35,303 bases of DNA, taken from IMG/VR virus record IMGVR_UViG_3300034280_000107, positions 1 to 35,303 of that record; one strand, given 5' to 3'. Below are positions 1 to 35,303 of this stretch, in pieces; the first letter of the stretch is position 1, and every line of letters begins with the position of its first letter. Under the pieces are notes generated by a model. The model was not told where the DNA came from. It did no database searches and was given only the letters and a program-made list of their open reading frames with translations. The translations under genes and the position numbers were made by a program. This stretch comes from a virus.

Positions 1-819
1 ACCGACTGGAACAAACTCACGGGCGGTTCAGCCTACACCGCAGGCCGGTGGTATGACTTCAGCGGCTTGAACGGCACGCCTGTGGCGAACGCCTTTGCAG
101 GCACTGCGCTGGCGTGGAGAACCTGCGACGAAACCACCGGCAACGGCACGCAGATTTTCGGCCTGCCGCACGGCGGGAATGTCAGCCCAGACACCAAGCA
201 CGTTCTGAACGTCGCGGCGCTCACTTCTGTGGCGACAGGCGTTCCGGCGCAGTTGATGCTGGTGGACTTGCAGGGCTACTGGCCCGGCATCACGAACAAC
301 TCGGCCACGGCGCAAACCCTTACGGGCACGCCCACTCTGCGCTACACCAACGGGGCCGGGTGCAGGTTGTTCTGGGTGCAAACCGCCGCAGCGGGCGCCA
401 CGGCGCAGAACATCGCGCTCAGCTACAGCAACACAGTGCCAACCTCGGGCAGGACGCTTCCGGTCACGGTCGCCATGACGGCTTCCGGCATCGTGGGGCA
501 CATCTCTCACTCAGGCACCGCAGCGAACAACTACGGCCCATTCCTGCCCCTGGCATCGGGCGACACGGGCGTGTCTACCGTGGCGACGGTCACGTTCTCT
601 GCTGCCAACACCGGCACCGGGGCGCTGTGCCTTGCCCGCCCGCTGCTGACGCTGCCGCTGACCACCGTGTCCGTCGCTGCCGAGCGTGATCTGCTCAACC
701 AACTGCCGAGCCTTCCTCGGGTGATGGACGGTGCCTGCCTCACGTGGCTCTACTTTGCGGGTGCGGCCACGGCGGCAAGCACAAACTTCTACGGCGCGGT
801 CGAGGTCGGCTGGGGCTGA
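1..819 (+). CDS. Phage structural protein, 5'-truncated (paralog B)
   Basis: The reading frame is open from the first base and stops at 817-819, so 272 residues are seen and the true start lies outside the window. Its early part contains WYDFSGLNGTP, then an AGTAL motif and HGGNVSPDTKH. The C-terminal half is rich in Ala, Thr and Ser, as in beta-rich virion proteins. It is clearly related to the protein beginning at 34982: the DFS...GTAL stretches align without gaps and both have an LQGYWP/LDYLMF-type segment later. About 20 residues are probably missing at the start. It lies between portal and scaffold genes, a position with no counterpart in P22 itself. Function is unknown; a virion surface or head-associated role is inferred from context. 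Confidence 0.75.
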   Translation, partial: TDWNKLTGGSAYTAGRWYDFSGLNGTPVANAFAGTALAWRTCDETTGNGTQIFGLPHGGNVSPDTKHVLNVAALTSVATGVPAQLMLVDLQGYWPGITNNSATAQTLTGTPTLRYTNGAGCRLFWVQTAAAGATAQNIALSYSNTVPTSGRTLPVTVAMTASGIVGHISHSGTAANNYGPFLPLASGDTGVSTVATVTFSAANTGTGALCLARPLLTLPLTTVSVAAERDLLNQLPSLPRVMDGACLTWLYFAGAATAASTNFYGAVEVGWG

Positions 820-827
820 TCGGGCTC

Positions 828-1697
828 ATGGCTCTCAAGACAAACACCACGCTCCTGGCGCAGCTACCCCTGCGCCAGATCGGCGGCTCGCCTGGAACTT
901 TCCGTTCCATGTGGGGGCGTGGCGACCGGATGAACCAGTCCGTGGGCGTGGGCATCCCGTCCAAGCTGGCGGGCATCCCCTCCGGGCACCTCGCGCCATC
1001 GTCGTGGGTGCTACCGTACAAGCCGGGGGCGATGTCGTCGTTCACCAATCTGGTGGTGACGGTCACGCCGGGTACGCTGAACCTCGCGGCGGGCGTCAAC
1101 ATCACGGGCAGCACGACGGTCACGATCACCGTCAATCCCGCTGATGGGCAACTCATTGTCTCGGCGTCAGGTTCGACGTCCATCACGTTCAATCTTGCGG
1201 GCAACTTGGCTGGTGCCCTGTCCGCATCTGGCAGCACGTCCTTCTCGTTCACGGTCAACAACGCCACGCTCGGCGCCATCGTCGACGCCGTGGGCGCCGC
1301 GCTCGTGCAGTTCTCAAACAGCGCCACGGTCAGGGCCACGGGCAACCTGTCGGGCGACATCACACCATTCACCGAACTGAGCCCGCAGTCCCTGTCAGCG
1401 GCGGTGTGGGAATCCCTCGCCAGCGCCTACAACGCGCCTGGCACGATGGGAGAGCTGCTGAACAGCGCGGGCGGCGGTGCCAGTCCGGCCACGATTGCCG
1501 CTGAGGTGTGGTCTACACCGCTTGAGACGCTGACGGCCGAGGAGATCATGCGCGTGCTTCTGGCGGCGCTGGCCGGTGCTCGATCTGGGCTCGGCTCGGG
1601 GACCGAGGAATACTTGGCGCAGGACGGCACCACGCCGCGCATCACGTTCAGCCCCGACGCGCAGGGCAACGGCACGCCGATCATCGATGCTACTTAG
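828..1697 (+). CDS. Conserved phage virion-type protein, unknown function
   Basis: 289 residues. I chose the ATG at 828, 8 bp after the upstream stop, because the longer frame would run back inside the previous gene. The N-terminus is basic and Gly-rich (GTFRSMWGRGD). The centre has repeated Thr/Ser/Gly beta-strand-like segments (NITGSTTVTITV, SGSTSITFNLAG, SGSTSFSFTV), which suggests a repetitive beta structure such as a fibre or decoration domain. The C-terminus is more helical (AAVWESLASAYN, AAEVWSTPLETLTAEEIMRVL). The ALAGARSGLGSGTEEYLAQDG end with its PRITFSPDAQGN segment resembles a C-terminal motif I recall from phage structural proteins. Its stop overlaps the next gene by 11 bp. Function unknown. 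Confidence 0.72.
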   Translation: MALKTNTTLLAQLPLRQIGGSPGTFRSMWGRGDRMNQSVGVGIPSKLAGIPSGHLAPSSWVLPYKPGAMSSFTNLVVTVTPGTLNLAAGVNITGSTTVTITVNPADGQLIVSASGSTSITFNLAGNLAGALSASGSTSFSFTVNNATLGAIVDAVGAALVQFSNSATVRATGNLSGDITPFTELSPQSLSAAVWESLASAYNAPGTMGELLNSAGGGASPATIAAEVWSTPLETLTAEEIMRVLLAALAGARSGLGSGTEEYLAQDGTTPRITFSPDAQGNGTPIIDAT

Positions 1698-2205: not shown

Positions 2206-3096
2206 ATGCCAGTAGAGATTGAAGTCACCCAGCCTGACGGCTCCAGCGAGACACCTGCACTCGACGAACTGGAGGCCCAGGATACGCGGGCAGCAGAGCC
2301 AGAGACGCCAGAACCAGCGGAAGACGCCGAAGGCGAACAGGAGCTCAAGATCACGCTCGGCGGCCAGACGCTGACCGAGCCTGAGCCAGAGGCCGAAAGG
2401 GCACCAGAGTGGGTGCGCGACCTGCGACGGTCTCACCGCGAGCTGCAGCGCAAGGTGCGCGAGTACGAGGTCCGCGAGCAGCAGACAACCCAGACCCAGA
2501 GCGCGGCCATTCCGGCGCTCGGCGCGAAGCCGAAGCTCGAAGACCACGACTATGACACCGACCGCTACGAGGCGGCGCTTGAGTCCTGGTACAAGCAGAA
2601 GGACGCCGTGGAGGTCGCCAAGCGCCAGCAGCAGCAGCAGGTCGAGGAGCAGCAGCGCACCTGGCAGGCCAAACTCGACGGCTACGCCAAGGCCAAGACC
2701 GAACTCAAGGTTCGTGACTACGATGACGCTGAGTCCACGGTGCAGGAGACGCTGAACGTGGTGCAGCAGGGCGTGGTGCTGCAGGGCGCGGAGAACCCGG
2801 CGCTGGTGGTCTACGCGCTGGGCAAGAACCCCAAGAAGGCCAAGGAACTGGCCGCCATCACTGACCCGGTGAAGTTCGCATTCGCCGTTGCAAAACTGGA
2901 GTCTCAGTTGAAAGTCACCTCTACCCGCAAGCCCCCGCCTCCCGAGCGTTCCGCGCCCGCCGGCAACGCGCCAATCTCCGGCACCACCGACAGCGTGCTG
3001 GAGCGCCTGCGCGTTGACGCCGAGCGCACGGGCGACATGACGAAGGTCATCGCCTATCGCCGCCAACAGCGAGAAAAGCAGTCTGCGCGCCGCTGA
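2206..3096 (+). CDS. Scaffolding protein (P22 gp8-like)
   Basis: 296 residues, close to the roughly 300 residues of P22 gp8. It sits directly upstream of the coat gene, the normal scaffold position. The composition fits: residues 1-65 are very acidic and Pro/Glu-rich, the middle (about 68-165) is a long charged Gln/Lys/Glu helix with QQQQQVEEQQR, and the C-terminus is basic (PPPPERSAP, then RVDAERTGDMTKVIAYRRQQREKQSARR spread over the last 40 residues). A basic C-terminal helix is what scaffolds of this class use to bind coat protein. It would fill the procapsid and leave before DNA packaging. The call rests on position, size and composition rather than strong sequence identity. The RBS is weak (AAAGAG upstream of ATG 2206). 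Confidence 0.82.
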   Translation: MPVEIEVTQPDGSSETPALDELEAQDTRAAEPETPEPAEDAEGEQELKITLGGQTLTEPEPEAERAPEWVRDLRRSHRELQRKVREYEVREQQTTQTQSAAIPALGAKPKLEDHDYDTDRYEAALESWYKQKDAVEVAKRQQQQQVEEQQRTWQAKLDGYAKAKTELKVRDYDDAESTVQETLNVVQQGVVLQGAENPALVVYALGKNPKKAKELAAITDPVKFAFAVAKLESQLKVTSTRKPPPPERSAPAGNAPISGTTDSVLERLRVDAERTGDMTKVIAYRRQQREKQSARR

Positions 3097-3257: not shown

Positions 3258-4529
3258 ATGGCCAACAGTTTTTCCAAGGAAGAGCGCGTAGCGTTCGAGG
3301 ACATCCTCGAAGGCTTCAACGACGCGCTTGTGCTGTCTCGCAACGTCTCCGTGTACCGCACCGACGGCACGATGATGGAGCGCACCAACAACGTGATCTG
3401 GCGCCCGCAGCCCTACATCGCGCAGTCCTACAACGGCATGGATCAGACGCTGAACTTCACCGAGTTCACGCAGTTGTCCGTTCCTTCCACGCTCGGCTTC
3501 CAGAAGTCGGTGCCTTGGATTATGGACGCGCTTGAGCTGCGCGACGCTCTGCAGGAAGGCCGCCTCGGCGACGCCGCCAAGCAGAAGCTGGCCTCTGACG
3601 TCAACCTCGCCGTCATGAACGTCGCCGCGAACCTGGGTTCGCTGGTGGTCCGCACCACGGCCTCGGCCGGCAGCTACGATGACGTGGCTGCGTGCGACAC
3701 GATCATGAACGAGCAGGGCGTGCAGATGTTCGACCGCTACCTGGCGCTGTCGAGCCGCGACTACAACGGCATGGCCGGCAATCTGGCCGTGGCGACGCGC
3801 TCGTTCGGCAACCAGATCAGCGACGAGGCATATCGTCGCGGCTTCGTCGGCACTGTGGCTGGTTTCCAGACGTACAAGTTTGACTACGCCAACCGCATCC
3901 GTGGAGCCACTGGCGCCGATCCCACGATCGACACCCAGGCCGCAGCCGGCAACTACTGGGTGCCGGTGGCCACCAGCGTGGCCGCTACCGGCGAGTCCGC
4001 CAACGTGGACAACCGCTTCCAGACCGTGACGGTGAACTCGACTGCCAACCTGTTGGCCGGCGACGCGATCACCATCGACGGCGTGGTGGCTGTGCATCAC
4101 ATCACCAAGCAGTCCACTGGCGAACTCAAGACCTTCCGCGTGGTTCAGGTTCTGACCGGCACCACCTGCGTCATCACCCCGCCGATCATCTCGGCTCAGG
4201 GTGGCACGGACGCAGAACTGCAGTACCAGAACGTCATCGTCACGCCCAGCGCCGCCGCCACGGTGGACCGTCTGAACGTGGATGCCGCTCCGATCAACTG
4301 CTTCTGGCAGAAGGACGCGCTGGAACTCCTGCCGGGACGCTACGCAGTGCCTGCTGACGCTGGTGCCGCAGTCATGCGTGCCTCCACCGACCAGGGCATT
4401 GAGCTGGTAATGCAGAAGCAGTACGACGTCAACACCATGAAGACCAAGTACCGCCTCGACTGCCTGTTCGGCGTGGTGAACAAGCAGCCCGAGATGAGCG
4501 GCATCCTGCTCTTCGGGCAGACCCCCTGA
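3258..4529 (+). CDS. Major capsid (coat) protein, P22 gp5 family
   Basis: 423 residues against 430 in P22 gp5. Features of the family are visible: a charged N-arm followed by NNVIWRPQPY (compare the NTIW segment of gp5), a helix with LASDVNLAVMNVAANLGSLVV (compare the ELKVANMAAEMGSLV region), and the insertion-domain-like stretch VDNRFQTVTVNSTANLLAGDAITIDGV. A NCFWQKDALEL segment near residue 350 matches the NVFWADDAIR region. It forms the T=7-type shell on the scaffold. It starts with ATG 3258 behind GAGGA. It is preceded by a 161-bp leader and followed by a GC-only hairpin, so its transcript level is probably set separately from its neighbours. Confidence 0.93.
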   Translation: MANSFSKEERVAFEDILEGFNDALVLSRNVSVYRTDGTMMERTNNVIWRPQPYIAQSYNGMDQTLNFTEFTQLSVPSTLGFQKSVPWIMDALELRDALQEGRLGDAAKQKLASDVNLAVMNVAANLGSLVVRTTASAGSYDDVAACDTIMNEQGVQMFDRYLALSSRDYNGMAGNLAVATRSFGNQISDEAYRRGFVGTVAGFQTYKFDYANRIRGATGADPTIDTQAAAGNYWVPVATSVAATGESANVDNRFQTVTVNSTANLLAGDAITIDGVVAVHHITKQSTGELKTFRVVQVLTGTTCVITPPIISAQGGTDAELQYQNVIVTPSAAATVDRLNVDAAPINCFWQKDALELLPGRYAVPADAGAAVMRASTDQGIELVMQKQYDVNTMKTKYRLDCLFGVVNKQPEMSGILLFGQTP

Positions 4530-11999: not shown

Positions 12000-12002
12000 G
12001 TC

Positions 12003-13370
12003 ATGGTTCAGCCGTTCAACTACGTCATCCCCCAGGCAGACCCGTTTGCTGGGGTGCTGCAGGGCCTGAAGCTCGGGGCGTCAGTCCAGCAGATGGAGGC
12101 TGCGCGGGAGCAGCAGGCCATGCAGGCTGCGGCGCAGCAGCAGGCCATGGCCCTGAAGGCCGCGCAAGAGCAAGAAATTCAGGCCAAACTTGCAGCCCAG
12201 AATCGTCTGGCAACGGCCGCCGACTCTCTGTTGGGGAAGATTCGCGGAGGGATGGCGACGGAATCTGACTTTGCGGAATATCGCCTCATCGCACCGAAGG
12301 ATCAGTCAGAAGCGGCCGCGAAGGTATTTGAGGGCATGAGCAAAACGCAGCAGCAAAACGCTCTGAGCTTTGGCACACAAGTCATGGCCGCGCTTGGCAG
12401 CAAAGACCCGCAGATCGGCATTGCTATGCTTGAGGAGCGCGAAGCAGCAGAGCGCGAGAAAAACCCTCAGATGGCGCAGGCGTGGGGGACGGTTGCCAAG
12501 CTGGCGAAGCTGGACCCGGCCAATGGCATCTTCGCAGCAGGCGCCGCTATGGCTGGCCTGCCTGGCAGCAAGGAAGCGATTGAGGGATGGCAGAAGACTC
12601 AGGAAGAGCGCAGGGCACGGGCGTTGGAGCCATTTAAGGTGCGCGAGCAAACGGCATCGACTCTTATCAAGGAGGCCGAGGCAAAGTTTGCACCCGACAA
12701 ACTCGGCGCCGAACTGAAACTGACAGACGCTCAGATTGAGCAAGCGAAGGCGGCACGGCGCGCATCTGACGCCGCTGCCGCAAAGTCCGGTGCGGATGCC
12801 GTTCGGGCTCGCGCAGAGGCGAATCAACTTTCTGCCGGCATCATCCCGGCGGAAAAGCGCCCAGAGGCCGAGAGCAAGTTCCGCAGGGAATACAGCGACC
12901 AGACGAAGGGATACCAAGAGGTCAAGTCGGCCTATGGCCGCGTCCTGGCGTCTGAGGATACTGCCGTCGGCGATCTTTCGCTGATCTTCGGCTACATGAA
13001 GATGCTGGACCCCGGCTCTGTGGTGCGCGAGGGCGAATTCGCAACGGCACAAAACGCGGCCGGCGTGCCTGAGCGAATCCAGAACATCTACAACCGCGTC
13101 GTCAGCGGGCAGAGGCTTTCGCCTTCGCAGCGTTCATCGTTCAAGGGCCAAGCTGGCAAGCTGTACGAAACGGCACAGACGCAAGAGGGCCAGGTGCGCC
13201 AAGGCATCGAGCGCATTGCCAAGGGCTACGGACTGAACACGGCCAATATCTTCTACACCCCAGCGGAAGTAATGCCCACGGCTCCTGGGCAGCCAAAACC
13301 GGCTGCGCCTCCGCCGCGAACTGGAGCCCAACCTGCTGCTGGTCAGCGCAACGTGACGGTGGACTTCTAA
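12003..13370 (+). CDS. DNA ejection protein, P22 gp20-like position
   Basis: 455 residues (P22 gp20 has 471), ATG 12003 behind GGAGG. The first 90 residues are Gln/Ala-rich helix (QMEAAREQQAMQAAAQQQAMALKAAQEQEI in part), and the centre holds many charged helices (QEERRARALEPFKVREQTAS, EAKFAPDKLGAELKLTDAQ). A Pro-rich tail ends in QRNVTVDF. Such a helical, polymer-like protein fits the ejectosome role. Sequence identity to P22 is not apparent by eye; the call rests on gene order, size and composition. Confidence 0.75.
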   Translation: MVQPFNYVIPQADPFAGVLQGLKLGASVQQMEAAREQQAMQAAAQQQAMALKAAQEQEIQAKLAAQNRLATAADSLLGKIRGGMATESDFAEYRLIAPKDQSEAAAKVFEGMSKTQQQNALSFGTQVMAALGSKDPQIGIAMLEEREAAEREKNPQMAQAWGTVAKLAKLDPANGIFAAGAAMAGLPGSKEAIEGWQKTQEERRARALEPFKVREQTASTLIKEAEAKFAPDKLGAELKLTDAQIEQAKAARRASDAAAAKSGADAVRARAEANQLSAGIIPAEKRPEAESKFRREYSDQTKGYQEVKSAYGRVLASEDTAVGDLSLIFGYMKMLDPGSVVREGEFATAQNAAGVPERIQNIYNRVVSGQRLSPSQRSSFKGQAGKLYETAQTQEGQVRQGIERIAKGYGLNTANIFYTPAEVMPTAPGQPKPAAPPPRTGAQPAAGQRNVTVDF

Positions 13371-13371
13371 C

Positions 13372-15360
13372 ATGCCGTACTCCATCACCACCAAAGACGG
13401 CATCACGATTCAGAACATCCCGGACGATGTTGCGCCGGATGCTCCAGAACTGAAGGCGCGTGTCGCTCAGATTCGTGCAGCTGGTGGTGCGCAGGCTGTG
13501 GAGCCGGCAAAGCCAGAGACGACGACCGCTGGCGTAGTGGGTGCCATCACTCGCGGCGCGGCGCTGCCGTTGGCTGGTGCAACAGTTGGCGGACTTGTTG
13601 CTGGACCGCCTGGCGCACTTGCCGGCGGCGCGGCTGGGGTGCTGGCTCCGTTGATTGGCGACCCCATCGTGGGCACCGTCAACCGGATGCTGGGCACCAA
13701 GTACACGATGCCGACGCAGGCCATGGAAGACCTGCTGACGCGCATCGGCGTAGCGCAACCGAAGACGGAGGCGGAGCGCATCGTTCAGGCCACGTCCGCA
13801 GGCGCTGCGGGCGCTGGAGGCATGGCTGCGCTGGGACGCACAGTTCAAACCCTGGCGGGCCAGGCGTCCCCGGTGACGCGTGAAGTGGGCCGCATGCTGG
13901 CAACTCAACCAACCACGCAAGTTGCTGGTGGCGCAGGCGCAGGCCTGGCAGGCCAGGCGGCGCAGGAAGCAGGAGCTGGGCCTCTAGGGCAGATCGGAGC
14001 TAGTTTGGTGGGAGGCGTAGCCGGCGCTGCCGCAGTACCACGGCGCACCCCTATGCCTCGCGTCGCTGGTACGGTGGAAGAGGCCACACAGCGTGGCATT
14101 CCTGTGCTGACATCTGATGTGATGCCGCCCGAGACATTCATGGGCAAGGCTGCGCAGCGCGTTGGTGAGCGCATCCCACTGGTCGGCACTGGCCCGACAC
14201 GGGCAGCCCAGCAACGAGCCAGGATTGAAGCCACACGCGATTTGCTGCGGCAGTATGGCGCCGAGGATGTGGCGAACGTCAGCGATGACGTCATGCGCGA
14301 TCTGGCCAACAAGCGGGCGGCAGACCTCAACAAGTATTCAAGCCTGAAGAACGAGGTGATCGACAGGCTGGATGCGGCTGGCCCAGTGCCGGTGCCATCA
14401 GCCACACAGGCGATTGATGCCAAAGTAGCAGAGCTGCAAGGCCTTCGGTCTGAGCAATACACGCCGATCATCAACGTGCTGCAAGACTGGAAGGCAAGTC
14501 TTCAGAACCAAGGTCTCAGCAACGTTGAAACCTTGCGCAAGCAGATTGGTGAGGCGTTCTCTGCGCCTGAACTGGCGTCAATTCGCACTGCCGGGGAGAA
14601 GGCGCTGTCCAGCGTCTATGGACCGCTGAAGCAGGACATGGAGGCCTTCATCACAGCCACTGGCCAGCGCCGTGACGTGACGAAGTGGAAGCTGTCAAAC
14701 AAGCGGCTGGCTGATCTTGCAGGCGAGCTGGACATGGGCGCGCTCAAGTCTGTTCTGCGCTCTGGTGACGTCACGCCTGAAGTGGTAGATCGTCTGCTAT
14801 TCAGCAAGAAGCCAAGCGAGGTGAGCCAGCTTTACTCTGGCCTGACGCAGAGCGGACGCTCCAACGCCAGAACGGCCATCTTGTCGCGTGCTGCCGAGAA
14901 GTCCTACTACCAGCTTGAGGACGGTACTCGCATGTTCAGCCCCGAGAAGTTCAACGCTGAAATCAAGCGGCTCCAGCCTCAGATCGGCGCGTTCTTCCGT
15001 GGCGATGATCTGAAGCAGGTCGAAGGCCTTTCTCGCGCCCTGACGCTGACGCGCAGAGCTGGCGAGGCTGGCGTGGCCACTGCTACCGGACAGGAGGCTG
15101 TGCCATTTGTGGCTGGCGGCGTGCTGGCCGATCTGCTGGGCACGATGGGCGCGACCATCGCGGCGGCTGGTGGCATCGGAGCTACGGCCCGCCTGTATGA
15201 GTCTGCACCAGTGCGCAATCTGATGATCCAATTAGGACGCACGGCCCCAGGCAGCGCAGAACAGGCTGCACTCGCCAAGCGTCTAACATCCGTCATCCAA
15301 ACACAATCCGAGGCGCTGCAAGGCGCCGAAGAGAATCGTCCCCGACTGATTCTTGACTGA
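13372..15360 (+). CDS. DNA ejection protein, P22 gp16-like position
   Basis: 662 residues (P22 gp16 has 609), ATG 13372 one base after the previous stop. The N-terminus (PYSITTKDGITIQNIPDDVAPDAPEL) is a short domain frequent in phage virion proteins. A hydrophobic Gly/Ala block follows at about residues 60-105 (TRGAALPLAGATVGGLVAG, APLIGDPIVGTV), then more Gly/Ala segments, suggesting membrane insertion or pore-forming stretches. The centre is long helix. A second hydrophobic block lies near 580-610 (VPFVAGGVLADLLGTMGATI). gp16 is thought to help DNA cross the inner membrane, and these hydrophobic segments fit. Enzymatic domains were not recognised. Confidence 0.77.
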   Translation: MPYSITTKDGITIQNIPDDVAPDAPELKARVAQIRAAGGAQAVEPAKPETTTAGVVGAITRGAALPLAGATVGGLVAGPPGALAGGAAGVLAPLIGDPIVGTVNRMLGTKYTMPTQAMEDLLTRIGVAQPKTEAERIVQATSAGAAGAGGMAALGRTVQTLAGQASPVTREVGRMLATQPTTQVAGGAGAGLAGQAAQEAGAGPLGQIGASLVGGVAGAAAVPRRTPMPRVAGTVEEATQRGIPVLTSDVMPPETFMGKAAQRVGERIPLVGTGPTRAAQQRARIEATRDLLRQYGAEDVANVSDDVMRDLANKRAADLNKYSSLKNEVIDRLDAAGPVPVPSATQAIDAKVAELQGLRSEQYTPIINVLQDWKASLQNQGLSNVETLRKQIGEAFSAPELASIRTAGEKALSSVYGPLKQDMEAFITATGQRRDVTKWKLSNKRLADLAGELDMGALKSVLRSGDVTPEVVDRLLFSKKPSEVSQLYSGLTQSGRSNARTAILSRAAEKSYYQLEDGTRMFSPEKFNAEIKRLQPQIGAFFRGDDLKQVEGLSRALTLTRRAGEAGVATATGQEAVPFVAGGVLADLLGTMGATIAAAGGIGATARLYESAPVRNLMIQLGRTAPGSAEQAALAKRLTSVIQTQSEALQGAEENRPRLILD

Positions 15361-20729: not shown

Positions 20730-20914
20730 TCATCCCTCCCGTTCAAATCGGCGCACACCTGCTCTGCGCTGCTGCGCGTCAGGCAATCGGCCACCACGGC
20801 GGCTGACCCGTCCAGGCCAGCCAAACGGCGCACGACAAGCCAGCGGTCGCCGGCCTGCTGCACCCGGTAAAGGCGCTGCGGCACCACGGTTTCGGCGGTA
20901 TCAGATCGGGTCAT
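20726..20914 (-). CDS. Unknown small protein
   Basis: 62 residues; I chose ATG at 20914, because the longer frame runs back through the RecT-like gene. Sequence TVVPQRLYRVQQAGDRWLVVRRL, then VADCLTRSSAEQVCADLN, looks like a small beta-beta-alpha fold. It starts 14 bp inside the end of the RecT-like gene and shares its operon. Confidence 0.62.
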   Translation of the reverse strand: MTRSDTAETVVPQRLYRVQQAGDRWLVVRRLAGLDGSAAVVADCLTRSSAEQVCADLNGRDE

Positions 20915-21620
20915 CTGCGCCTCCTTGGTCTGCTGCAGGCTCCTGGGCGGCACGAATCTGGCCGGCACGAACTTGGGCCGCGTCCATGGCCTCGGCGCGG
21001 GCTTCACGGTCCAGCGTGCGGATGGATGCGCGCAGGGCGTTGAGTTCGTCGATGGTCTGCGCGGCGTCGATCTGGCGCATGACATGGGGGAAGTCTGCGA
21101 CCTCGACCACCGGCCCCATGTCGCGCTGGACGGGTGCCGGTGCGTGGCCGGCGTCTTCGGCCTCCTCGGGCGTGTAGGTGCCGACCACCACGCCGGGGAA
21201 CACGGTGCGGATGCCCTCGGAAACGCACCGGGCGCGCAGCATCTGGCGCGGGTAGCTTTTCCATGTCGGGTTTTTGGTCAGGCCGGCAGCCGTGGCCATG
21301 TCCAGCGTCCAATCAACCTCCACGCTGCCGCCTTGCGGGTGCGAGAACGTGCCGACCACGCGCCGGTCGGTGTACTCGCCCCAGCGCACGCTGCCGCCTG
21401 CCGAATGGAAGCGGGCCAGCATGGCGTCGGCCTTGAGCGTGGGCCTGCCGTTGATGACATGGTAGTCACGCGCTGCGATGGCTGGGTGCAGACCTTCGGC
21501 CTGCGCGATGAGCATCAGGGCCATGGCCTGGTCTGGGGTCTTGACGCCGAACAGGCCAGACTTGGCGACGGCCACGGCCATGCGCTCGACTTGATCGACG
21601 GGAACGAGTGCAGTTGTCAT
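20901..21620 (-). CDS. RecT-like single-strand annealing protein
   Basis: 239 residues, minus strand; ATG at 21620 has AGGAG 9 bp upstream. The segment AVAVAKSGLFGVKTPDQAMALMLIAQAEG, then AARDYHVINGRPTLKADAMLARF and WKSYPRQMLRARCVSEGIRTVFPG, is typical of RecT-family proteins found beside YqaJ exonucleases. It should anneal complementary single strands and promote strand invasion in phage recombination. The C-terminal 40 residues are a poorly conserved acidic tail. It is 18 bp from the exonuclease gene, the usual exo-annealase pair. Confidence 0.85.
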   Translation of the reverse strand: MTTALVPVDQVERMAVAVAKSGLFGVKTPDQAMALMLIAQAEGLHPAIAARDYHVINGRPTLKADAMLARFHSAGGSVRWGEYTDRRVVGTFSHPQGGSVEVDWTLDMATAAGLTKNPTWKSYPRQMLRARCVSEGIRTVFPGVVVGTYTPEEAEDAGHAPAPVQRDMGPVVEVADFPHVMRQIDAAQTIDELNALRASIRTLDREARAEAMDAAQVRAGQIRAAQEPAADQGGADDPI

Positions 21621-21638: not shown

Positions 21639-22319
21639 TTAGAAGGAAACCTTGGCGCGCAGCTTGGCCACAATGTCGTCTGCCTCTGCGCTGAATCCGA
21701 TGATCTCGCGCTCCAGGCGCGCCTGGAACTCGGGGTTACCCTTGACTCGCTCAACGTAGAGCTGCAGGTCGGCGGGCATGCGCGGGTCGAAGCTGACGAA
21801 ATCCGCCCACTCGCGGCCAGTCAGCCACATCTGGCCCTGAATCTGTGGCATGTGATCCTCGGGCATGCCGCCCAGCCACGTTTCAAGGTGGACCTGGGAA
21901 CTCCACGGGCACTTGATTTCGATGAGCCCGAAGGCGCCATCGGGGTCGGTTTCGTCCGTCACCAGGCCGTCAGGGCTCACGCCGATGGGCAGCTTCGGGT
22001 GCGCGATGAAGCCCGTTTCGGTGATCCGGGCCGAGGTGGTGAACTGGTACGCCACGCGGGCGGCGTCTTCGTTCTCGCGGCCCCAGCGCAGCGGTGCGGC
22101 GTCGGGCATCTGCACGGGCTGGCCCGTCAGGCGCTCGGTGACGATCTGCCAGAGGTAGCGGGTGCGCTCGGCGCTCGGGTTTCCAGGCTCGCCGGCCTTG
22201 GCCTGCGCGGCCGTGGGTTTGTTGCGGGCCAGGACGTCCTTGAATCTGCTGGCGGTGACCTTGCCGGCGCGGGCGGCGTGCCATTCGTCGGTGCGTTGGG
22301 TGTCGGTGAGGGTGGTCAT
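21639..22319 (-). CDS. YqaJ-type viral exonuclease (lambda Exo-like)
   Basis: 226 residues, ATG at 22319 on the minus strand, GGAG upstream. The family residues are visible: R9-T10-D11-E12-W near the N-terminus, WGRENEDAA (79-87), SPDG (115-118) with Asp117, IEIKCP (133-138) with Glu134 and Lys136, and the Gln-rich MPQIQGQM near 157-164. This is the PD-(D/E)xK nuclease fold of lambda Exo and YqaJ. It should resect double-strand ends 5' to 3' to feed the RecT-like annealase encoded next to it. Overlaps its upstream neighbour by 4 bp. Confidence 0.9.
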   Translation of the reverse strand: MTTLTDTQRTDEWHAARAGKVTASRFKDVLARNKPTAAQAKAGEPGNPSAERTRYLWQIVTERLTGQPVQMPDAAPLRWGRENEDAARVAYQFTTSARITETGFIAHPKLPIGVSPDGLVTDETDPDGAFGLIEIKCPWSSQVHLETWLGGMPEDHMPQIQGQMWLTGREWADFVSFDPRMPADLQLYVERVKGNPEFQARLEREIIGFSAEADDIVAKLRAKVSF

Positions 22320-24141: not shown

Positions 24142-24176
24142 CAACCTGCGGCGTGGCCGCAACGAAAGGAGAGAGA

Positions 24177-26378
24177 GTGCAAAACTACGAGGACTTCGTG
24201 GCCGGCAAGCGCCGCGCCGAGGTGGGCACTGGCCACCAGCCGGGAGAACTGAACCCGCATCTGTTCGACTTCCAGCACGCCATCGTGTCATGGGCCGTGC
24301 GCCGCGGCCGTGCGGCGATCTTTGCGGACACCGGCCTCGGCAAGACCCTGATGCAACTGTCATGGGCTGACGAGGTGGCATCGCACACGAATGGCGCGGT
24401 GCTGATCCTGGCGCCGCTGGCCGTGTCAGAGCAGACCATCGAGCAGGGCTCTACGTTCGGCATCACGGTGCGGCGGGTTCCTCACGGTGGCTCACCGGAT
24501 GCGCCTGGCGTCTGGATCACGAACTACGAGCGCATGGATGCCATCGACTTCGGCGGCTTGCACGGGCTTGTGCTGGACGAATCCAGCATTCTCAAGGCTC
24601 ACGATGGCAAGACCCGCACGCGCATCATTGAATCTGCGCAGGGCGTCCCGTATCGCCTAAGCTGCACGGCCACGCCAAGCCCGAACGACTTCGAGGAGCT
24701 GGGCAACCAGTGCGAGTTCCTCGGCGTGATGACGCGCACGGAGATGCTCGCCACGTACTTCGTCAACGACACCGGAGACACCGGCACATGGCGCCTGAAG
24801 GGATGGGGTGCCTCGAAGTTCTGGGAGTGGATGGGCACATGGGCCGTGGTGCTGCGCAACCCTTCGGATCTCGGGTTCGACGGGTCGCGGTACGTGCTTC
24901 CTGCCCCGCAGTACCTTGAGCATGTCGTTGAGACTGATCCGCTGGGCAACGACCTATTCAGCCGGCCAGCGCAGACCCTGACAGAGCGCCGTCAAGCGCA
25001 GCGCGCAAGCATTGAGCAGCGATGCCAGGCGCTGGCCGATGTGGTCAATTTGGAATCGTCTGAGCCGTGGCTGATCTGGTGCCATCTGAACGACGAGGCC
25101 GAGCTGCTGCAAAGCCTGATTCCTGGCAGCATCAACGTGCAAGGGTCAGACAGTGCCGAATACAAGGCCGAGCAGATGATGGCCTTCAGCCGTGGCACTC
25201 TGCGCGTGCTCATCAGCAAGCCGAAGATTTGCGGCTTCGGCATGAACTGGCAGCACTGCGCACGCATGGCGTTCGTCGGTCTGGATGACTCGTTCGAGAA
25301 GTTCTACCAGGCCGTGCGGCGATGCCATCGATTCGGCCAGAAGCGCAGCGTGCAGGTGCATCTGTTCACTGCCGAGAACGAAGGCCAGATTCTGCTGAAC
25401 CTCAAGCGCAAGGAGGAGCAGCACCACGAAATGAGCGCGAACATGATCGAGCACATGAAAGACATCATGAACCATGAGCTGTCTGGGCAGCAAAACATCG
25501 TGGACGAATACCGCGAGGACACTCACGAAGGCGACGGGTTTACCGTGCATCTGGGTGACTGCGTGAAGTGGACTCGGCGCATGGCAGACAACAGCATCGA
25601 TTACTCGGTGTTCTCGCCCCCGTTCGCTGATCTGTTCGTCTACTCCAACAGCGACCACGACATGGGCAACTGCCGCGATGATGCGGAGTTCGTGGCCCAG
25701 CTTCGCTACCTGATCGGAGAGTTGTTCCGCATCATCAAGCCTGGGCGCAATGTCAGCTTCCACTGCATGAACCTGCCGACCACCAAGATGCGGCAAGGGT
25801 TCATCGGGCTGCGCGACTTCCGGGGCGACCTGATCCGCGCATTTCAGGATGCCGGCTTCATCTACCATTCGGAGGTGTGCATCTGGAAAGACCCCGTAGT
25901 GGCGATGCAGCGCACCAAGGCGCTGGGCCTGCTGCACAAGACCATTCGCGAGAACGCTAGCATGTCACGCATGGGCTTGCCTGACTACGTGGTGACGATG
26001 CGCAAGCCTGGAGACGCCGAGCCGCGTGTAACGCATGGCGATGATCTGCCTGTCATGATGTGGCAGAAGTACGCCAGCCCGATCTGGAGCGACATCGACC
26101 AGGGGCGCACGCTGAACAAGCTGCCGGCCCGCGACGAGAACGACGAAAAGCATATGTGCCCGCTGCAACTGGACGTCATCGAGCGATGCATCCATCTGTG
26201 GACGAATCGCGGAGACTTGATCTTCAGCCCTTTCACTGGCATTGGTTCTGAGGGCTACTGCGCAGTGAAGATGGGCCGCAGGTTTGTCGGAACTGAACTG
26301 AAGCCGCAGTATTGGGAGCTGGCCGTCGAGAACATCACCGACGCCACACGCGAGCAGCGCGGGCTATTCGCAGCATGA
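24177..26378 (+). CDS. SNF2-type helicase fused to DNA methyltransferase
   Basis: 733 residues. I chose GTG 24177 because AAAGGAGAG lies just upstream; an earlier GTG (24153) lacks an RBS. Residues 1-400 are a superfamily 2 helicase: Walker A ADTGLGKT (50-57), VLDESS (132-137, motif II), SCTATPSPND (162-171, motif III) and QAVRRCHRFGQKR (378-390, motif VI, SNF2-like). Residues 450-733 are a methyltransferase with order SPPF (480-483, motif IV) then FSPFTGIGS (683-691, motif I), the permuted beta-class order of N6-adenine or N4-cytosine enzymes. It may modify phage DNA while moving on it. Followed by a nuclease gene in the same operon (ATGA overlap). Confidence 0.88.
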   Translation: MQNYEDFVAGKRRAEVGTGHQPGELNPHLFDFQHAIVSWAVRRGRAAIFADTGLGKTLMQLSWADEVASHTNGAVLILAPLAVSEQTIEQGSTFGITVRRVPHGGSPDAPGVWITNYERMDAIDFGGLHGLVLDESSILKAHDGKTRTRIIESAQGVPYRLSCTATPSPNDFEELGNQCEFLGVMTRTEMLATYFVNDTGDTGTWRLKGWGASKFWEWMGTWAVVLRNPSDLGFDGSRYVLPAPQYLEHVVETDPLGNDLFSRPAQTLTERRQAQRASIEQRCQALADVVNLESSEPWLIWCHLNDEAELLQSLIPGSINVQGSDSAEYKAEQMMAFSRGTLRVLISKPKICGFGMNWQHCARMAFVGLDDSFEKFYQAVRRCHRFGQKRSVQVHLFTAENEGQILLNLKRKEEQHHEMSANMIEHMKDIMNHELSGQQNIVDEYREDTHEGDGFTVHLGDCVKWTRRMADNSIDYSVFSPPFADLFVYSNSDHDMGNCRDDAEFVAQLRYLIGELFRIIKPGRNVSFHCMNLPTTKMRQGFIGLRDFRGDLIRAFQDAGFIYHSEVCIWKDPVVAMQRTKALGLLHKTIRENASMSRMGLPDYVVTMRKPGDAEPRVTHGDDLPVMMWQKYASPIWSDIDQGRTLNKLPARDENDEKHMCPLQLDVIERCIHLWTNRGDLIFSPFTGIGSEGYCAVKMGRRFVGTELKPQYWELAVENITDATREQRGLFAA

Positions 26379-30326: not shown

Positions 30327-30344
30327 ACTAACATAGGAGCAAAC

Positions 30345-30767
30345 ATGGCAAACAAACGAACCAAGCCAGGAAGCCCTGAGCGGGCCGAGATTGCGGAGAA
30401 GGTCATCAAGGCGATGGACTCTGGCATGAGCTGCTTCAAGGCTTGCCAGCAGGCTGGCGTGCCGATGCCGACGTTCATGCTGTGGGTTGGACAGGACGCG
30501 GAGCTGGCCGACAGGTACGCGCAGGCGCGCGAGAACTTCGTCGAGCGCATCGCCCAAGAGGTCATGGAGTTATCCGACGTCGATGTCGGAGAAACCCCAG
30601 ATGGACGGAAGGACTGGGCCGCTGTGCAAAAGCACAAACTCCAGGTAGATACTCGCAAGTGGCTGTTATCGAAACTGGCGCCGAAGAAATACGGCGAGAA
30701 AATCGAGATCAGCGGCGACAAAGAATCTCCGCTGGTGCATCGCATCGAGCGCGTGGTGGTTAAGTGA
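30345..30767 (+). CDS. Terminase small subunit
   Basis: 140 residues from ATG 30345 with TAGGAG 6 bp upstream; a GTG at 30321 is less likely. The N-terminus (RAEIAEKVIKAMDSGMSCFKACQQAGVPMPTFMLWV) is a helix-turn-helix with the CxKAC..GVP..TFMLWV signature of Sf6-type small terminases. The middle is helical (DAELADRYAQARENFVERIAQEVMELSDV) and is followed by DWAAVQKHKLQVDTRKWLLSKL. It recognises phage DNA and starts packaging. Directly followed (GTGA overlap) by the large subunit. Confidence 0.87.
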   Translation: MANKRTKPGSPERAEIAEKVIKAMDSGMSCFKACQQAGVPMPTFMLWVGQDAELADRYAQARENFVERIAQEVMELSDVDVGETPDGRKDWAAVQKHKLQVDTRKWLLSKLAPKKYGEKIEISGDKESPLVHRIERVVVK

Positions 30768-31990
30768 CCACCCTTCGCATCGAAACCCCAGAGTGGGCGC
30801 TGCCGCTGCTGGGCCAGGCGCGGTACAAGGGCGCTCACGGTGGCCGAGGCTCTGGCAAGTCGCACCTGTTCGCTGAGATGCTGATTGAGGCCCACATCAT
30901 GGACCCGACCAGCCGCAGCGTCTGCGTGCGCGAGGTGCAGAAGTCCCTGAGCCAGTCCGTCAAGCGCCTGCTGGAGCTCAAGATCGAGGCGCTGAACGCG
31001 GGCGCTTACTTCGAGGTGCAAGAGGCCGTGATCAAGTCCAAGCGCGGCGACGGACTGATCATCTTCCAGGGCATGCAGAACCACACAGCGGACTCGATCA
31101 AGTCCCTGGAAGGCTATGACCGCGCCTGGGTCGAGGAAGCGCAGAGCCTGAGCCAGCGCAGCCTGGACCTGCTGCGGCCGACGATCCGCAAGCCGGACTC
31201 GGAACTGTGGTTCACCTGGAACCCGAGCCAGGACTCCGACCCGGTTGACCAGCTGCTGCGCGGCCCGAAGCCGCCGCCTGACGCCATGGTGGTCGAGGTG
31301 AACTTCGAGCAGAACCCGTGGTTTCCTGACGTTCTGCGGGCCGAGATGGAATACGACCGTGGCCGAGACCCGGACAAGTACGCGCACGTCTGGCGCGGCG
31401 GCTACCTCAGCAACAGCACGGCCCGCGTGTTCCAGAACTGGAAGGTCGAGGACTTCGACTCCCCGAAGGACGCGATCCACCGCCTGGGCGCCGACTGGGG
31501 CTTTGCCACCGACCCCACGGTGCTGGTGCGCTGCCACGTTGTCGGCCGCACGCTCTACATCGACCACGAAGCCTACATGGTGGGCTGCGAGATCATGAAC
31601 ACGCCAGACCTGTTCATGACCGTGCCAGAGGCCGAGAGATGGCCCATGGTGGCCGACAGCTCGAGGCCTGAGACCATCAGCCACATGCGCAGGCATGGGT
31701 TCCCAAAGATCCTGTCAGCCGTGAAGGGCCCGCGCAGCGTTGAGGAGGGCATCGAATGGCTGAAGTCCTATGACATCGTGGTGCACCCGCGCTGCCTGCA
31801 CACAATCGACGAGCTGACGCACTACTCATACAAAAGCGATCCGCTGACAGGCCAGATCCTGCCGGTGCTGCAGGACAAGCACAATCACGTCATCGACGCA
31901 TTGAGGTACGCTTGCGAGGGTATGAGGCGTGCCGCAGCGGTCACGCGGCAGGTCTCAGCAGTGCCATTGCCTACTGTCAGCCGCTGGTAG
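30764..31990 (+). CDS. Terminase large subunit (terminase-3 type)
   Basis: 408 residues, GTG 30764. The ATPase half has Walker A GGRGSGKS (26-33) and Walker B YDRAWVEEAQ (118-127), followed by the coupling-like TWNPSQ (151-156). The nuclease half has GADWGFATDP (242-251, Asp244), ADSSRPE (297-303, Asp298) and DKHNHVIDALRYA (371-383, Asp378), the three acidic residues of the RNase H-like packaging nuclease. It matches the terminase_3/PBSX family rather than the P22 gp2 type. It packages DNA through the portal and cuts it. The next gene (portal) is 33 bp away. Confidence 0.93.
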   Translation: MTTLRIETPEWALPLLGQARYKGAHGGRGSGKSHLFAEMLIEAHIMDPTSRSVCVREVQKSLSQSVKRLLELKIEALNAGAYFEVQEAVIKSKRGDGLIIFQGMQNHTADSIKSLEGYDRAWVEEAQSLSQRSLDLLRPTIRKPDSELWFTWNPSQDSDPVDQLLRGPKPPPDAMVVEVNFEQNPWFPDVLRAEMEYDRGRDPDKYAHVWRGGYLSNSTARVFQNWKVEDFDSPKDAIHRLGADWGFATDPTVLVRCHVVGRTLYIDHEAYMVGCEIMNTPDLFMTVPEAERWPMVADSSRPETISHMRRHGFPKILSAVKGPRSVEEGIEWLKSYDIVVHPRCLHTIDELTHYSYKSDPLTGQILPVLQDKHNHVIDALRYACEGMRRAAAVTRQVSAVPLPTVSRW

Positions 31991-32023: not shown

Positions 32024-34390
32024 ATGGCGCGCATATCCACCGAGCAGAGGCTCATGAACCTGCATCAGGAAGCGCTGCGGCAGTTCAACGACATTCAGAC
32101 CGCCCTGCGCGACGAGCGACTGCAGTGCTTGCAGGACCGCCGCTTCTACAGCCTGGCCGGCAGCCAGTGGGAAGGCCCGCTGCGCGACATCTACGAGAAC
32201 AAGCCGCGCATGGAGGTGAACAAGGTTCACCTGAGCGTCATCCGCATCATCAACGAGTATCGCGCCAACCGCGTGACGGTGGACTTCACGCCGAAGGACG
32301 GCGGCGGCCCGGAGGCCGACAAGCTGGCCGAGACCTGCGACGCCCTGTACCGTGCCGACGAGCAGGACAGCGTGGCCGATGAGGCCTACGACAACGCCTT
32401 CGAGGAGGCTGTGGGCGGCGGCATTGGGGCGTGGCGCCTGCGCACCGTCTACGAGGACGAGGGCGACCCTGACAACGAGCGCCAGCGCATCCGCATTGAG
32501 CCGATCTTCGACGCGGACTCCAGCGTCTACTTCGACCTGAACGCCAAGCGCCAGGACAAGTCCGACGCCAGGTTCGCGTTCGTGGTCTCCAGCATGACGC
32601 GGGCCAGCTACATCGCGGAGTTTGGGGACGACCCGACCGACTGGCCGAAGATCGTGCACCAGTACGAATTCGACTGGCAGACGCCGGACGTTGTGTTCGT
32701 GGCGCAGTACTTCAAGGTTGAGGACGTCACCGAGACCATCCGCGTGTTCCGGGCTATTGACGGCACCGAAGAGAAATACCGCCAGAGCGAGTTCGACGCC
32801 GACGAGACGCTTGAGGACACGCTGGCCGCCATTGGCAGCGTCGAGGTTCGGCAGCGCAAGATCAAGCGCAAGCGCGTTCGCAAGTACCTGATGAGCGGCG
32901 GCAAGGTGCTCGAGGACTCCGGGTTCATCGCAGGCGAGTGCATCCCGGTGATCCCGAACTACGGCAAGCGCTGGTTCGTGGACAACATCGAGCGGTGTAT
33001 GGGCCATGTGCGCCTGGCCAAGGACAGCCAGCGCCTGAAGAACATGCAGCTGTCGAAGCTCGCCGAGATCAGCGCGCTGTCGAGTGTCGAGAAGCCGATA
33101 CTGCTGCCTGAGCAGGTCGCCGGCCACCAAGTCATGTGGGCCGACGACAACCTGCGCAACTACCCGTATCTGCTGGTCAACCCGATCAGCGGGCCTGACG
33201 GAAGCCAGCAGGCAGCTGGGCCGGTGGCGTACACCAAGAGCCCGACGATTCCGCCTGCGATGGCCGCGCTGCTGCAGATCACAGAGTCTGACATGCAGGA
33301 GATTCTTGGCGCCTCGCAGCAGGCCGACAAGATGGTCTCGAACACTTCCGGCAAGGCCGTGGAGTTGATCCAGACGCGCCTGGACATGCAGACCTTCATC
33401 TACATGAGCAACTTCGCCAAGGCCATGAAGCGCTGCGGCGAGGTGTGGCTTTCCATGGCCCGCGAGGTCTACGTCGAGGAAGGCCGCAAGATGAAGGGCA
33501 TTAGCCCCAACGGCGATCCGATGCAGATCGAGCTGATGAAGCCGATGGTCACCGATACCGGCGAGATGGCGCTGTCGAATGATCTCAGCGGCGCAAAGCT
33601 GGACGTCAACGTCGAAGTCGGCCCCAGCAGCAGCAGCAAGCGCGCAGCCACGGTGCGGGCGCTGACGGGCATGATGGCCATCACGCAAGATGCCGAGACG
33701 CAGCAAGTCCTGCAGGCGATGGCCATGATGAACATGGAAGGCGAGGGCATCGGCGACGTGAGGGATTACTTCCGCATGCGCCTGGTGAAGATGGGCGTCA
33801 TCAAGCCGACTGACGAGGAAGCCGAAGAGATGATGATCGAGCTGCAGGGCCAGCCGCAAGACCCAAACGCGGTGTTCCTGCAGGCTGCGGCCGAGGAGGC
33901 CCAGGCCAAGGCTGCCAAGGCCCGCGCCGATGTGGTCAACACGGTGGCCGACGCCGAACTGACGCAGGCAAAGACGGCCGAGATCATGGTCAAGATCGGA
34001 GGCGAGGTTGAGGGTGCGATGCAGCCGCAATCCACGCCAGAGCCGGCTGCGCCGCAGATTGATCCGTTCGAAGCAGCCAAGCGCGAACTGGAACTCGAAA
34101 ACATGCGGATGGACAATGCCGCGAAGTTCGCATCCTTGGCTAAGGCACTCAAGCAGCAGCAGGCCGAGGAAGAATCCGGCAGCGAAGAAGAATCGATCGC
34201 CGATGAGTCCGATGATAAAGTCAGCGAAACACTGGACGAACTGAAGTCCATGGTTGAATCGTTGGCCAGGCAGGTCGCGGACATGAGGCCGCAGCAGCCG
34301 ATCATCGTGTCCACGGGCGGCGGCGGCAAGAAGATCCAGATCACCAAGACCTCCACCGGGTTCTCCGGTGAGGTTGTCAACGAAGACTGA
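32024..34390 (+). CDS. Portal protein, P22 gp1 family
   Basis: 788 residues (P22 gp1 has 725), ATG 32024 with GGAG upstream. The family pattern is visible: QSLAGSQW-type N-terminus (DRRFYSLAGSQWEGPL), NKVHLSVIRIINEYRANRVTVDF, DALYRADEQDSVADEAYDNAFEEAVGGGIGAWRL, and later GWP-type stem helices (TLLQ.., QAGRNAS-like RQKSGKAVE). The last 150 residues are a long Ala/Glu/Gln-rich helical extension (AAAEEAQAKAAKARADVVN, ALKQQQAEEES), like the P22 barrel. Twelve copies form the portal ring at one capsid vertex and take DNA in from the terminase. Confidence 0.88.
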   Translation: MARISTEQRLMNLHQEALRQFNDIQTALRDERLQCLQDRRFYSLAGSQWEGPLRDIYENKPRMEVNKVHLSVIRIINEYRANRVTVDFTPKDGGGPEADKLAETCDALYRADEQDSVADEAYDNAFEEAVGGGIGAWRLRTVYEDEGDPDNERQRIRIEPIFDADSSVYFDLNAKRQDKSDARFAFVVSSMTRASYIAEFGDDPTDWPKIVHQYEFDWQTPDVVFVAQYFKVEDVTETIRVFRAIDGTEEKYRQSEFDADETLEDTLAAIGSVEVRQRKIKRKRVRKYLMSGGKVLEDSGFIAGECIPVIPNYGKRWFVDNIERCMGHVRLAKDSQRLKNMQLSKLAEISALSSVEKPILLPEQVAGHQVMWADDNLRNYPYLLVNPISGPDGSQQAAGPVAYTKSPTIPPAMAALLQITESDMQEILGASQQADKMVSNTSGKAVELIQTRLDMQTFIYMSNFAKAMKRCGEVWLSMAREVYVEEGRKMKGISPNGDPMQIELMKPMVTDTGEMALSNDLSGAKLDVNVEVGPSSSSKRAATVRALTGMMAITQDAETQQVLQAMAMMNMEGEGIGDVRDYFRMRLVKMGVIKPTDEEAEEMMIELQGQPQDPNAVFLQAAAEEAQAKAAKARADVVNTVADAELTQAKTAEIMVKIGGEVEGAMQPQSTPEPAAPQIDPFEAAKRELELENMRMDNAAKFASLAKALKQQQAEEESGSEEESIADESDDKVSETLDELKSMVESLARQVADMRPQQPIIVSTGGGGKKIQITKTSTGFSGEVVNED

Positions 34391-34403
34391 AAGGGCCTGA
34401 ACC

Positions 34404-34844
34404 ATGTCCATGACCAACGCCGCCGAAGAGGCATTCCTCGACCTCCTGTTCCTGAACGTCGACTGGGCCAACATCGGCGACGCTGCCGGCCTGCAGAACA
34501 GCGCCACGGCGGGTTCGTTTTACATCTCGCTGCACAGCGCAGACCCTGGAGAGGCGGGCAACCAGAGCACCAACGAGATCAGCTACACCGGCTACGCCCG
34601 CGTAGCTGTGAACCGCACGGCAGGCGGCTGGACGCGAACGGTGTCTACCATCGCCAACACCGCGCTGGTGCAGTTCGGTCAGTGTACGGCGGGGTCCGCC
34701 ACGGCCACGCACTTCGGCATTGGCACGGACTCCAGCGGCGCGGGCAACCTGCTGCTGAAAGGTGCGCTCAACGCCAGCCTGTCGATCAGCAACGGCATTC
34801 AGCCGCAGTTTGCTGCTGGTGCCATGACCGCCACGGTGGACTGA
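34404..34844 (+). CDS. Conserved phage structural protein, unknown
   Basis: 146 residues, ATG 34404. The N-terminus has LDLLFLNVDWANIGDAAGLQNSATAGSFYISLHSADPGEAGNQ, a common phage protein style, and it continues with TNEISYTGYARVAVNRTAGGW, then beta-rich segments ending in FAAGAMTATVD. It follows the portal gene closely and probably belongs to the virion or tail surface. No catalytic motif. Confidence 0.75.
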   Translation: MSMTNAAEEAFLDLLFLNVDWANIGDAAGLQNSATAGSFYISLHSADPGEAGNQSTNEISYTGYARVAVNRTAGGWTRTVSTIANTALVQFGQCTAGSATATHFGIGTDSSGAGNLLLKGALNASLSISNGIQPQFAAGAMTATVD

Positions 34845-34845
34845 T

Positions 34846-34992
34846 GTGGTGTACCGCTGCGCCCACTGTCGGGAACTGCTGACGCTGACAGACAACGAGT
34901 TGTCGGCCTGCTCAGAGCACCCGGACGGGGGCGTGGAATGGTCGCCTGACGAGGTGGAGTGGGCTTCGCTGGAGAACCCTGATGCCGTTTAG
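34846..34992 (+). CDS. Small zinc-ribbon-like protein
   Basis: 48 residues from GTG 34846 (or GTG 34849), just inside the stop of the previous gene; too short for a 60-residue cut-off. It has YRCAHC then ACSEHPDGG, i.e. CxxC plus a second Cys and His, so a small metal site is likely, and an acidic C-terminus (EWSPDEVEWASLENPDAV). The next gene starts 8 bp before its stop. Conserved-looking, unknown role. Confidence 0.65.
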   Translation: MVYRCAHCRELLTLTDNELSACSEHPDGGVEWSPDEVEWASLENPDAV

Positions 34993-35303
34993 GTCCGTTG
35001 CCGAGGTGGCTAATGCTGTCGAGCAAGGGCGGCATCACATCCAGCATTTCATCCGCACATCGGTTTACGGTAGTTTCGGGACCAACCCGTTTGGTGATTT
35101 CAGCGTCGCCAGCGGCATCCCGTCTTACAACGCATACGTTGGCACCGCGCTTGAGGCCACGCAACTCATCGGCCAGCGCAACAACAGCATCTATGTCGGC
35201 CCCGGCATCAGCACGGAGCGGTATCTGCTCAGTATGTCGTTGACGCATGGCGGCACCACGGGCTTTCTGCCTTCGGTCTACTTTCTCGACTATTTGATGT
35301 TTT
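34982..35303 (+). CDS. Structural protein, 3'-truncated (paralog A)
   Basis: 107 residues from ATG 34982 to the window edge, still open. It shows VAEVANAVEQGRHHIQHFIR, a GDFSVASGIP..YNAYVGTALEA stretch and a final FLDYLMF. The stretch aligns without gaps with the protein at 1-819 (shared DFS, NA, GTAL), so the two are tandem paralogs. Another 150-200 residues should lie beyond the window. Its position after portal suggests a head or head-surface protein. Confidence 0.72.
   Translation, partial: MPFRSVAEVANAVEQGRHHIQHFIRTSVYGSFGTNPFGDFSVASGIPSYNAYVGTALEATQLIGQRNNSIYVGPGISTERYLLSMSLTHGGTTGFLPSVYFLDYLMF

Follow-up and report, generated by a model that had tools for sequence, protein, structure and literature searches.

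When both ends of a viral contig fall inside genes, do the two severed genes belong side by side on one circular map, or do they mark fixed termini or sequences from different phages? This question is raised by a stretch of 35,303 nt (hereafter the window) that makes up an entire virus record, IMGVR_UViG_3300034280_000107, in which one gene (R) is cut by the right end and another (L) by the left. The initial annotation, made from the letters alone, took the two genes for paralogs and the window for a nearly complete circular genome. Here, we compare the window with viral contigs carrying relatives of R (60 loci) and of L (the best 80 of 279 loci); individual loci are designated by L numbers.

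The genes at the two ends

R is an ATG-initiated open reading frame (ORF) of 107 amino acids (34982-35302) that runs past the right end without a stop codon, leaving one base over, as originally annotated; L is entered from the left end, has no start codon in the window, and stops at 819 (Table 1). The sole stretch shared by the two window proteins is 20 amino acids long (DFS..GTAL; BLASTP E 5e-4), and 6 of 1000 shuffles of R matched its score. From the window by itself, paralogy would be a fair guess, suggestive rather than proven.

Full-length copies from a relative make the paralogy secure. Locus L004 carries both genes whole (R, 287 aa; a 9 nt spacer; L, 292 aa); the two proteins share the N-terminus MPF.S and align over 297 columns at 29% identity (E 1e-35), and a profile of R matches a profile of L at E 1.7e-35. 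At the level of sequence, these complete copies settle that R and L are neighboring tandem paralogs. The possibility that they are two halves of one gene is ruled out, as relatives carry two separate, complete genes. The initial annotation, which had proposed aligning the two proteins as a check, was thus right to see paralogs, and to see two proteins rather than one split gene; it was also correct in judging the right-end protein 150-200 residues short (180 are absent) and the left-end protein about 20 short (20 are absent).

Table 1. Features of the window and of the cassette that spans its ends.
Feature	Coordinates	Strand	Remarks
L	1..819	+	last 272 of 292 codons, without the first 20; paralog of R
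Gene 4, last cassette gene	828..1697	+	289 aa; first ~185 aa travel with the cassette, tail varies
Right edge of similarity, most other-backbone contigs	1410..1482		inside gene 4
Head scaffolding protein	2206..3096	+	phrog_648, E 9.6e-57
Coat protein, P22-like	3258..4529	+	PF11651, E 3e-92
Terminase small subunit	30327..30767	+	phrog_1482, E 1.8e-30
Terminase large subunit	30764..31990	+	profile match
Portal, P22-like	32024..34390	+	PF16510, E 1.5e-153
Left edge of DNA similarity to other backbones	34387..34404		start of gp80-like gene
gp80-like, first cassette gene	34404..34844	+	PF23140, 76 bits; PDB 8jou_a, E 2.8e-5
R	34982..35303	+	first 107 of 287 codons; truncated by contig end; putative beta-sandwich virion-surface protein

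The missing stretch and the circular map

Profile matches agree with the annotated arrangement, in which terminase and portal lie at the right end and scaffold and coat at the left. With circularity taken from relatives, the terminase and the P22-type portal, scaffold and coat genes are in order on a circular map; the portal is not followed directly by the scaffold, however, as a cassette that includes R and L intervenes.

The spacing between R codon 107 and L codon 21 was measured wherever R matched to residue 107 at at least 70% and L matched from residue 1 or 2 at more than 80%, a filter passed by 51 loci (fewer distinct contigs than that, several having been fetched twice). It is 612 nt at 35 loci, 606 at 13 and 609 at two, so that 50 of the 51 fall within 606-612 nt; the sole outlier is L002, at 525 nt. 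R and L are adjacent at all 51 loci, in the same order and on the same strand. For the window, a gap of 611 nt is predicted (542 nt of R, a 9 nt spacer and 60 nt of L), which falls within the 0.6-0.8 kb first estimated and gives a predicted circle of 35,914 nt (~35.9 kb). As for the marks of a complete circular contig, the window has its cut genes as neighbors in relatives and lacks a direct repeat at its ends: searches of the window for terminal direct repeats (8 to 199 nt) found none, and ungapped end overlaps of up to 699 nt gave nothing useful.

A sibling contig, IMGVR_UViG_3300042326_000341 (35,914 nt; loci L023 and L076), is collinear with the window throughout, its main DNA blocks being 87-98% identical. 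Protein identities are 100% for the terminase large subunit, 99% for the portal, 98% for the gp80-like protein, 97% for L and the scaffold, 96% for the coat and 92% for R. The unaligned stretches are mainly ~3.4 kb of ejection-protein genes (window 11918-15353), which have no DNA alignment to this otherwise close sibling. The sibling repeats exactly 58 nt of R at its two ends and, once these are joined, forms a circle of 35,856 nt in which 612 nt separate R codon 107 from L codon 21; only by chance is its length before closure the same as that of the circle predicted for the window. Among 12 long contigs examined with the R/L profile, R pieces lie at both ends of this sibling and of 3300044949_002606 (57,930 nt), a contig of another phage with a 60 nt self-overlap inside R. 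Four further P22-like contigs (L099, L108, L111 and L120) bridge the interval, carrying portal, gp80-like, R-type, L and scaffold genes in one piece; their R is of a divergent type, 35-42% identical to that of the window.

The annotation of a nearly complete circular genome is therefore borne out by the adjacency of R and L, the bridging contigs and the self-closing sibling, although closure is transferred from relatives, of which the sibling is only 92% identical in R. On this basis, the record may be treated as a genome that is ~98% complete and whose gap is known, and need not count as a fragment.

Two other regions of the window deserve mention. A RecT-like annealing protein is encoded beside an exonuclease (20904-21620 and 21642-22319, both on the minus strand; a RecE-like profile is among the matches), a phage recombination pair that could conceivably help cassette exchange. 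A 741-aa ORF (24153-26378, plus strand) matches helicase profiles in its first part and DNA methyltransferase profiles in its last 300 residues, and is a possible helicase-methyltransferase fusion. No host is claimed: the search of bacterial genomes with L gave three matches at 50-58% identity, all in metagenome-assembled genomes (Bdellovibrionales, Aquabacterium and Alphaproteobacteria).

A cassette shared by structurally different phages

The cassette spans ~3 kb and comprises genes for a gp80-like fiber protein, R and L, and the start of gene 4. It lies beside head genes of several families: phrog_156 (P22-type portal), phrog_21 (lambda-type), phrog_12 (HK97-like), phrog_332 (T7-like connector), phrog_1216 and phrog_12082, where the labels lambda-like, HK97-like and T7-like are our own interpretation of the phrog families, and where the neighbor tested is whichever ORF is longest in the 1.5 kb next to the gp80-like gene, and not in every case a portal. 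At L025 and L121, for example, the upstream ORF so chosen resembles tail spike or tail fiber proteins, and no portal was identified there. The contig of L071, which has a lambda portal, also carries a protease-capsid fusion and a tail tube gene, and is for that reason assigned to a long-tailed phage.

Between such backbones, the cassette is in part identical in DNA. The longest exact run, 667 nt, is between distant P22-like and lambda-like contigs, followed by 432 nt between near P22-like and T7-like, 337 nt between lambda-like and T7-like, and 280 nt between distant P22-like and HK97-like contigs; these are the best runs of each set, the medians of 15 portal-type pairings being 93 to 277 nt. 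As judged from such comparisons, the long exact runs point to recent exchange, beyond mere protein conservation, and copies of the cassette would move between phages by recombination. The genes differ in how far they vary, with L at 87-98% identity (11 representatives) and R at 38-98% (12 representatives). The gene 4 tail comes in types, found in most P22-like loci and L030, in lambda-like and several other loci, and in distant P22-like loci, respectively; an association with the neighboring genes is visible, if not strict.

We read the cassette as an exchangeable module with a putative role at the virion surface. A near-identical multi-gene module in phages with unrelated head and tail genes is a direct trace of recent exchange across structural lineages, and such trade is of more interest than circularity, which is itself ordinary for a single contig.

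The portal-scaffold slot of P22-like phages

From the positions in the window and the absent 611 nt, its portal and scaffold are ~3.7 kb apart. The interval between these genes was checked at no fewer than 80 loci recruited as coat-protein relatives and at five hand-picked loci. Among the matches listed, 46 coat-search loci have both genes: 35 have them less than 100 nt apart, 10 hold other cargo, and one (L147, on the same contig as L099) holds the cassette. Adding the hand-picked loci and leaving out L147, which is a duplicate, changes the counts among the matches listed to 36 with less than 100 nt, four with the cassette and 10 with other cargo (n = 50). Even close relatives differ: L148 and L150 match the window at 93% in the portal and 97% in the coat, yet their slot has no cassette, and L156 (portal, 92%; coat, 98%) has different genes in it. 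The cassette is an optional insert, outside the core late region.

The other cargo includes ORFs of 129 and 217 aa (L156:4055-6368), proteins of 149-171 aa together with proteins of 542-543 aa (L158:5176-7948 and L160:4009-7949), and a 368-aa protein (L192:1501-2604) that matches Pfam LPD23, a large polyvalent protein associated domain, at E 1.7e-11. Tested for L156 and L158, the cargo had no Pfam or PHROG match of note. Term searches of the literature recognized no paper on the cassette or on the portal-scaffold slot.

Putative functions of the cassette proteins

The gp80-like protein is the only member of a named family in the cassette, scoring 76 bits against PF23140 ('Podophage GP4 fiber I protein gp80'; curated cut-off, 27); its distant relative in the PDB, 8jou_a, belongs to what we take to be the GP4 fiber entry, 8jou. 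R, L and gene 4 have no match of note in Pfam, NCBIfam or PDB sequences, and the only PHROG match of R is phrog_34422 (E 0.0098 for the window part, 0.045 for the full protein). R and L are both modeled as beta sandwiches whose elements follow one another in a similar order (mean pLDDT 73.7 and 76.6). PDB structure matches of R (E down to 2.6e-5) were rejected as fold matches, with TM about 0.2 and rmsd near 20, and those of L likewise; the highest VIA-align Z values are 5.6 (R) and 5.5 (L), and unrelated beta sandwiches are interspersed among these matches.

Because of the Pfam family of the gp80-like protein and the beta-sandwich models of R and L, we infer that the cassette may encode a virion-surface assembly, whether fiber or decoration. 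Its parts would be the gp80-like fiber protein, R and L as jelly-roll-like paralogs, and the product of gene 4, with a variable tail that would adapt the module to the individual phage. In a fuller and decidedly tentative version, the four proteins would form one backbone-independent appendage, serving podovirus-, siphovirus- and possibly myovirus-like particles; the gp80-like protein, L and the first 185 residues of gene 4 would be kept, R would vary and the gene 4 tail would dock the structure, unrelated structural lineages would have traded copies recently by recombination, and the portal-scaffold interval of P22-like phages would be a landing slot for the cassette and for other surface cargo. 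Should the module indeed form a surface appendage, where it occurs would tell which phages meet within the same hosts.

It is also possible, though rather doubtful, that R and L are capsid-decorating (cement) proteins and not fiber parts. In the window the cassette lies among the head genes, and phage proteins of this kind (on which see PMC9698820) match weakly: KHP40 7dou_4 to R at Z 5.5 (rmsd 3.6, 113 residues aligned), and Pam1 7eel_H to R at Z 4.9 (rmsd 3.4, 115 aligned) and to L at Z 5.2 (rmsd 3.2, 113 aligned). These values, however, lie in a range common for unrelated beta sandwiches, and in a comparison with solved cement proteins of the KHP40, Pam1 and GP4 types, the range of Z 4.9-5.5 was no higher than for unrelated structures. 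L, moreover, keeps its 87-98% identity despite capsid proteins of different families, and the ORF upstream of the cassette at L025 and L121 is like a tail spike or tail fiber gene rather than a portal gene.

Why the contig ends within R

The window stops at base 322 of R, as do L010, L018 and L019 (three of the 60 R contigs), and the portals beside ends at this base are a distant P22-like portal, a P22-like portal at 74% and a T7-like connector. Its last 127 bases recur exactly at 14 loci, on 13 contigs (L005 and L071 being on one contig), beside different portals. Just past the break, at R bases 326-700, there is little variation among the sequences long enough to cover them (23-29 of a hand-picked set of 33 with close R). 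Contig ends fall inside the R-L interval in 35 of the 60 R-bearing contigs, against 20.2 expected at random, a modest 1.7-fold excess in a set of mostly short contigs, all recruited by their match to R, in which breaks before R are invisible. The metagenome prefix 3300042868, by the naming convention presumably one sample, is common to four R contigs whose portals are of two types or more.

Such breaks would arise if the middle of R is identical in several phages, so that short-read assembly reaches a branch point there and stops extending the contig. We infer that the window, too, ends in R because the cassette sequence is common to several phages, and that its break is an assembly branch at shared sequence, a point absent from the initial annotation. 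This would be a systematic type of contig end, which makes nearly whole genomes look incomplete when the break falls at a shared module.

Two explanations would deny the window its circle. The ends could come from two phages, or from a chimeric assembly, with no single circle behind them; a cassette common to many phages makes a wrong join nearby possible in principle, and the right end is cut where the sequences of different phages become identical. We consider this very improbable, since a sibling with the same backbone and gene order closes on itself, and since the bridging contigs link a P22-like portal to a P22-like scaffold via the cassette. Still less probable is a linear genome with fixed ends and the cassette at its termini, for which the 35 contigs terminating inside R or L might speak, as R and L are internal in long contigs, such as G005 (40,605 nt) and G010 (38,047 nt), and the termini lie at several bases, some common to different phages, which assembly branches fit better. 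With a probability of roughly 0.9, we conclude that the window is one contig of a P22-like phage with a circular map, carrying a cassette common to phages of other structural types.

Comparison with known systems

The window shares its terminase, portal, scaffold, coat, tail accessory and ejection genes, in P22 order, with the P22-like podophages. It differs from the circular P22-like MW202867.1 in the portal-scaffold slot, which is empty in the latter, with 55 nt between the two genes in contrast to ~3.7 kb. The likeness to the gp80 fiber of podophage GP4 comes only via the first cassette gene (PF23140, 8jou_a), R and L having no match among PDB sequences; the GP4 fiber was reportedly described in J Mol Biol in 2023.

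Closer to the cassette as a whole are uncharacterized proteins and gene sets of other phages. BFVD A0A6J5LV33 and others, from uncultured Caudovirales phages, share the predicted fold of R over its whole length (TM 0.87, 29% identity). Pseudanabaena phage PA-SR01, podovirus MW202692.1 and LR756502.1 have gp80-like and L-like genes close together and in the same order as in the cassette, the L-like proteins being about 34-37% identical to L. The complete circular podovirus MW202692.1 (L133, 6001-9346) encodes gp80-like, R-like, longer L-like (390 aa) and gene 4-like proteins in cassette order; the 642-kb genome of the uncultured phage LR756502.1 encodes gp80-like, L-like and gene 4-like proteins, again in cassette order, at about 122034-125110.

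A last comparison is with the neck fiber of Anabaena myophage A-1(L), formed by gp80-gp82. As a homolog it was rejected at the sequence level, hhalign giving a probability of at most 1.7% for R, L and the gp80-like family against gp80, gp81 and gp82. According to PMC10966104, the neck fiber is encoded by a small operon located away from the remaining structural genes, and is a self-assembling, multi-protein structure of which one subunit docks on the phage. This resembles the anatomy proposed here for the cassette, and the A-1(L) neck fiber is a possible analog of it.
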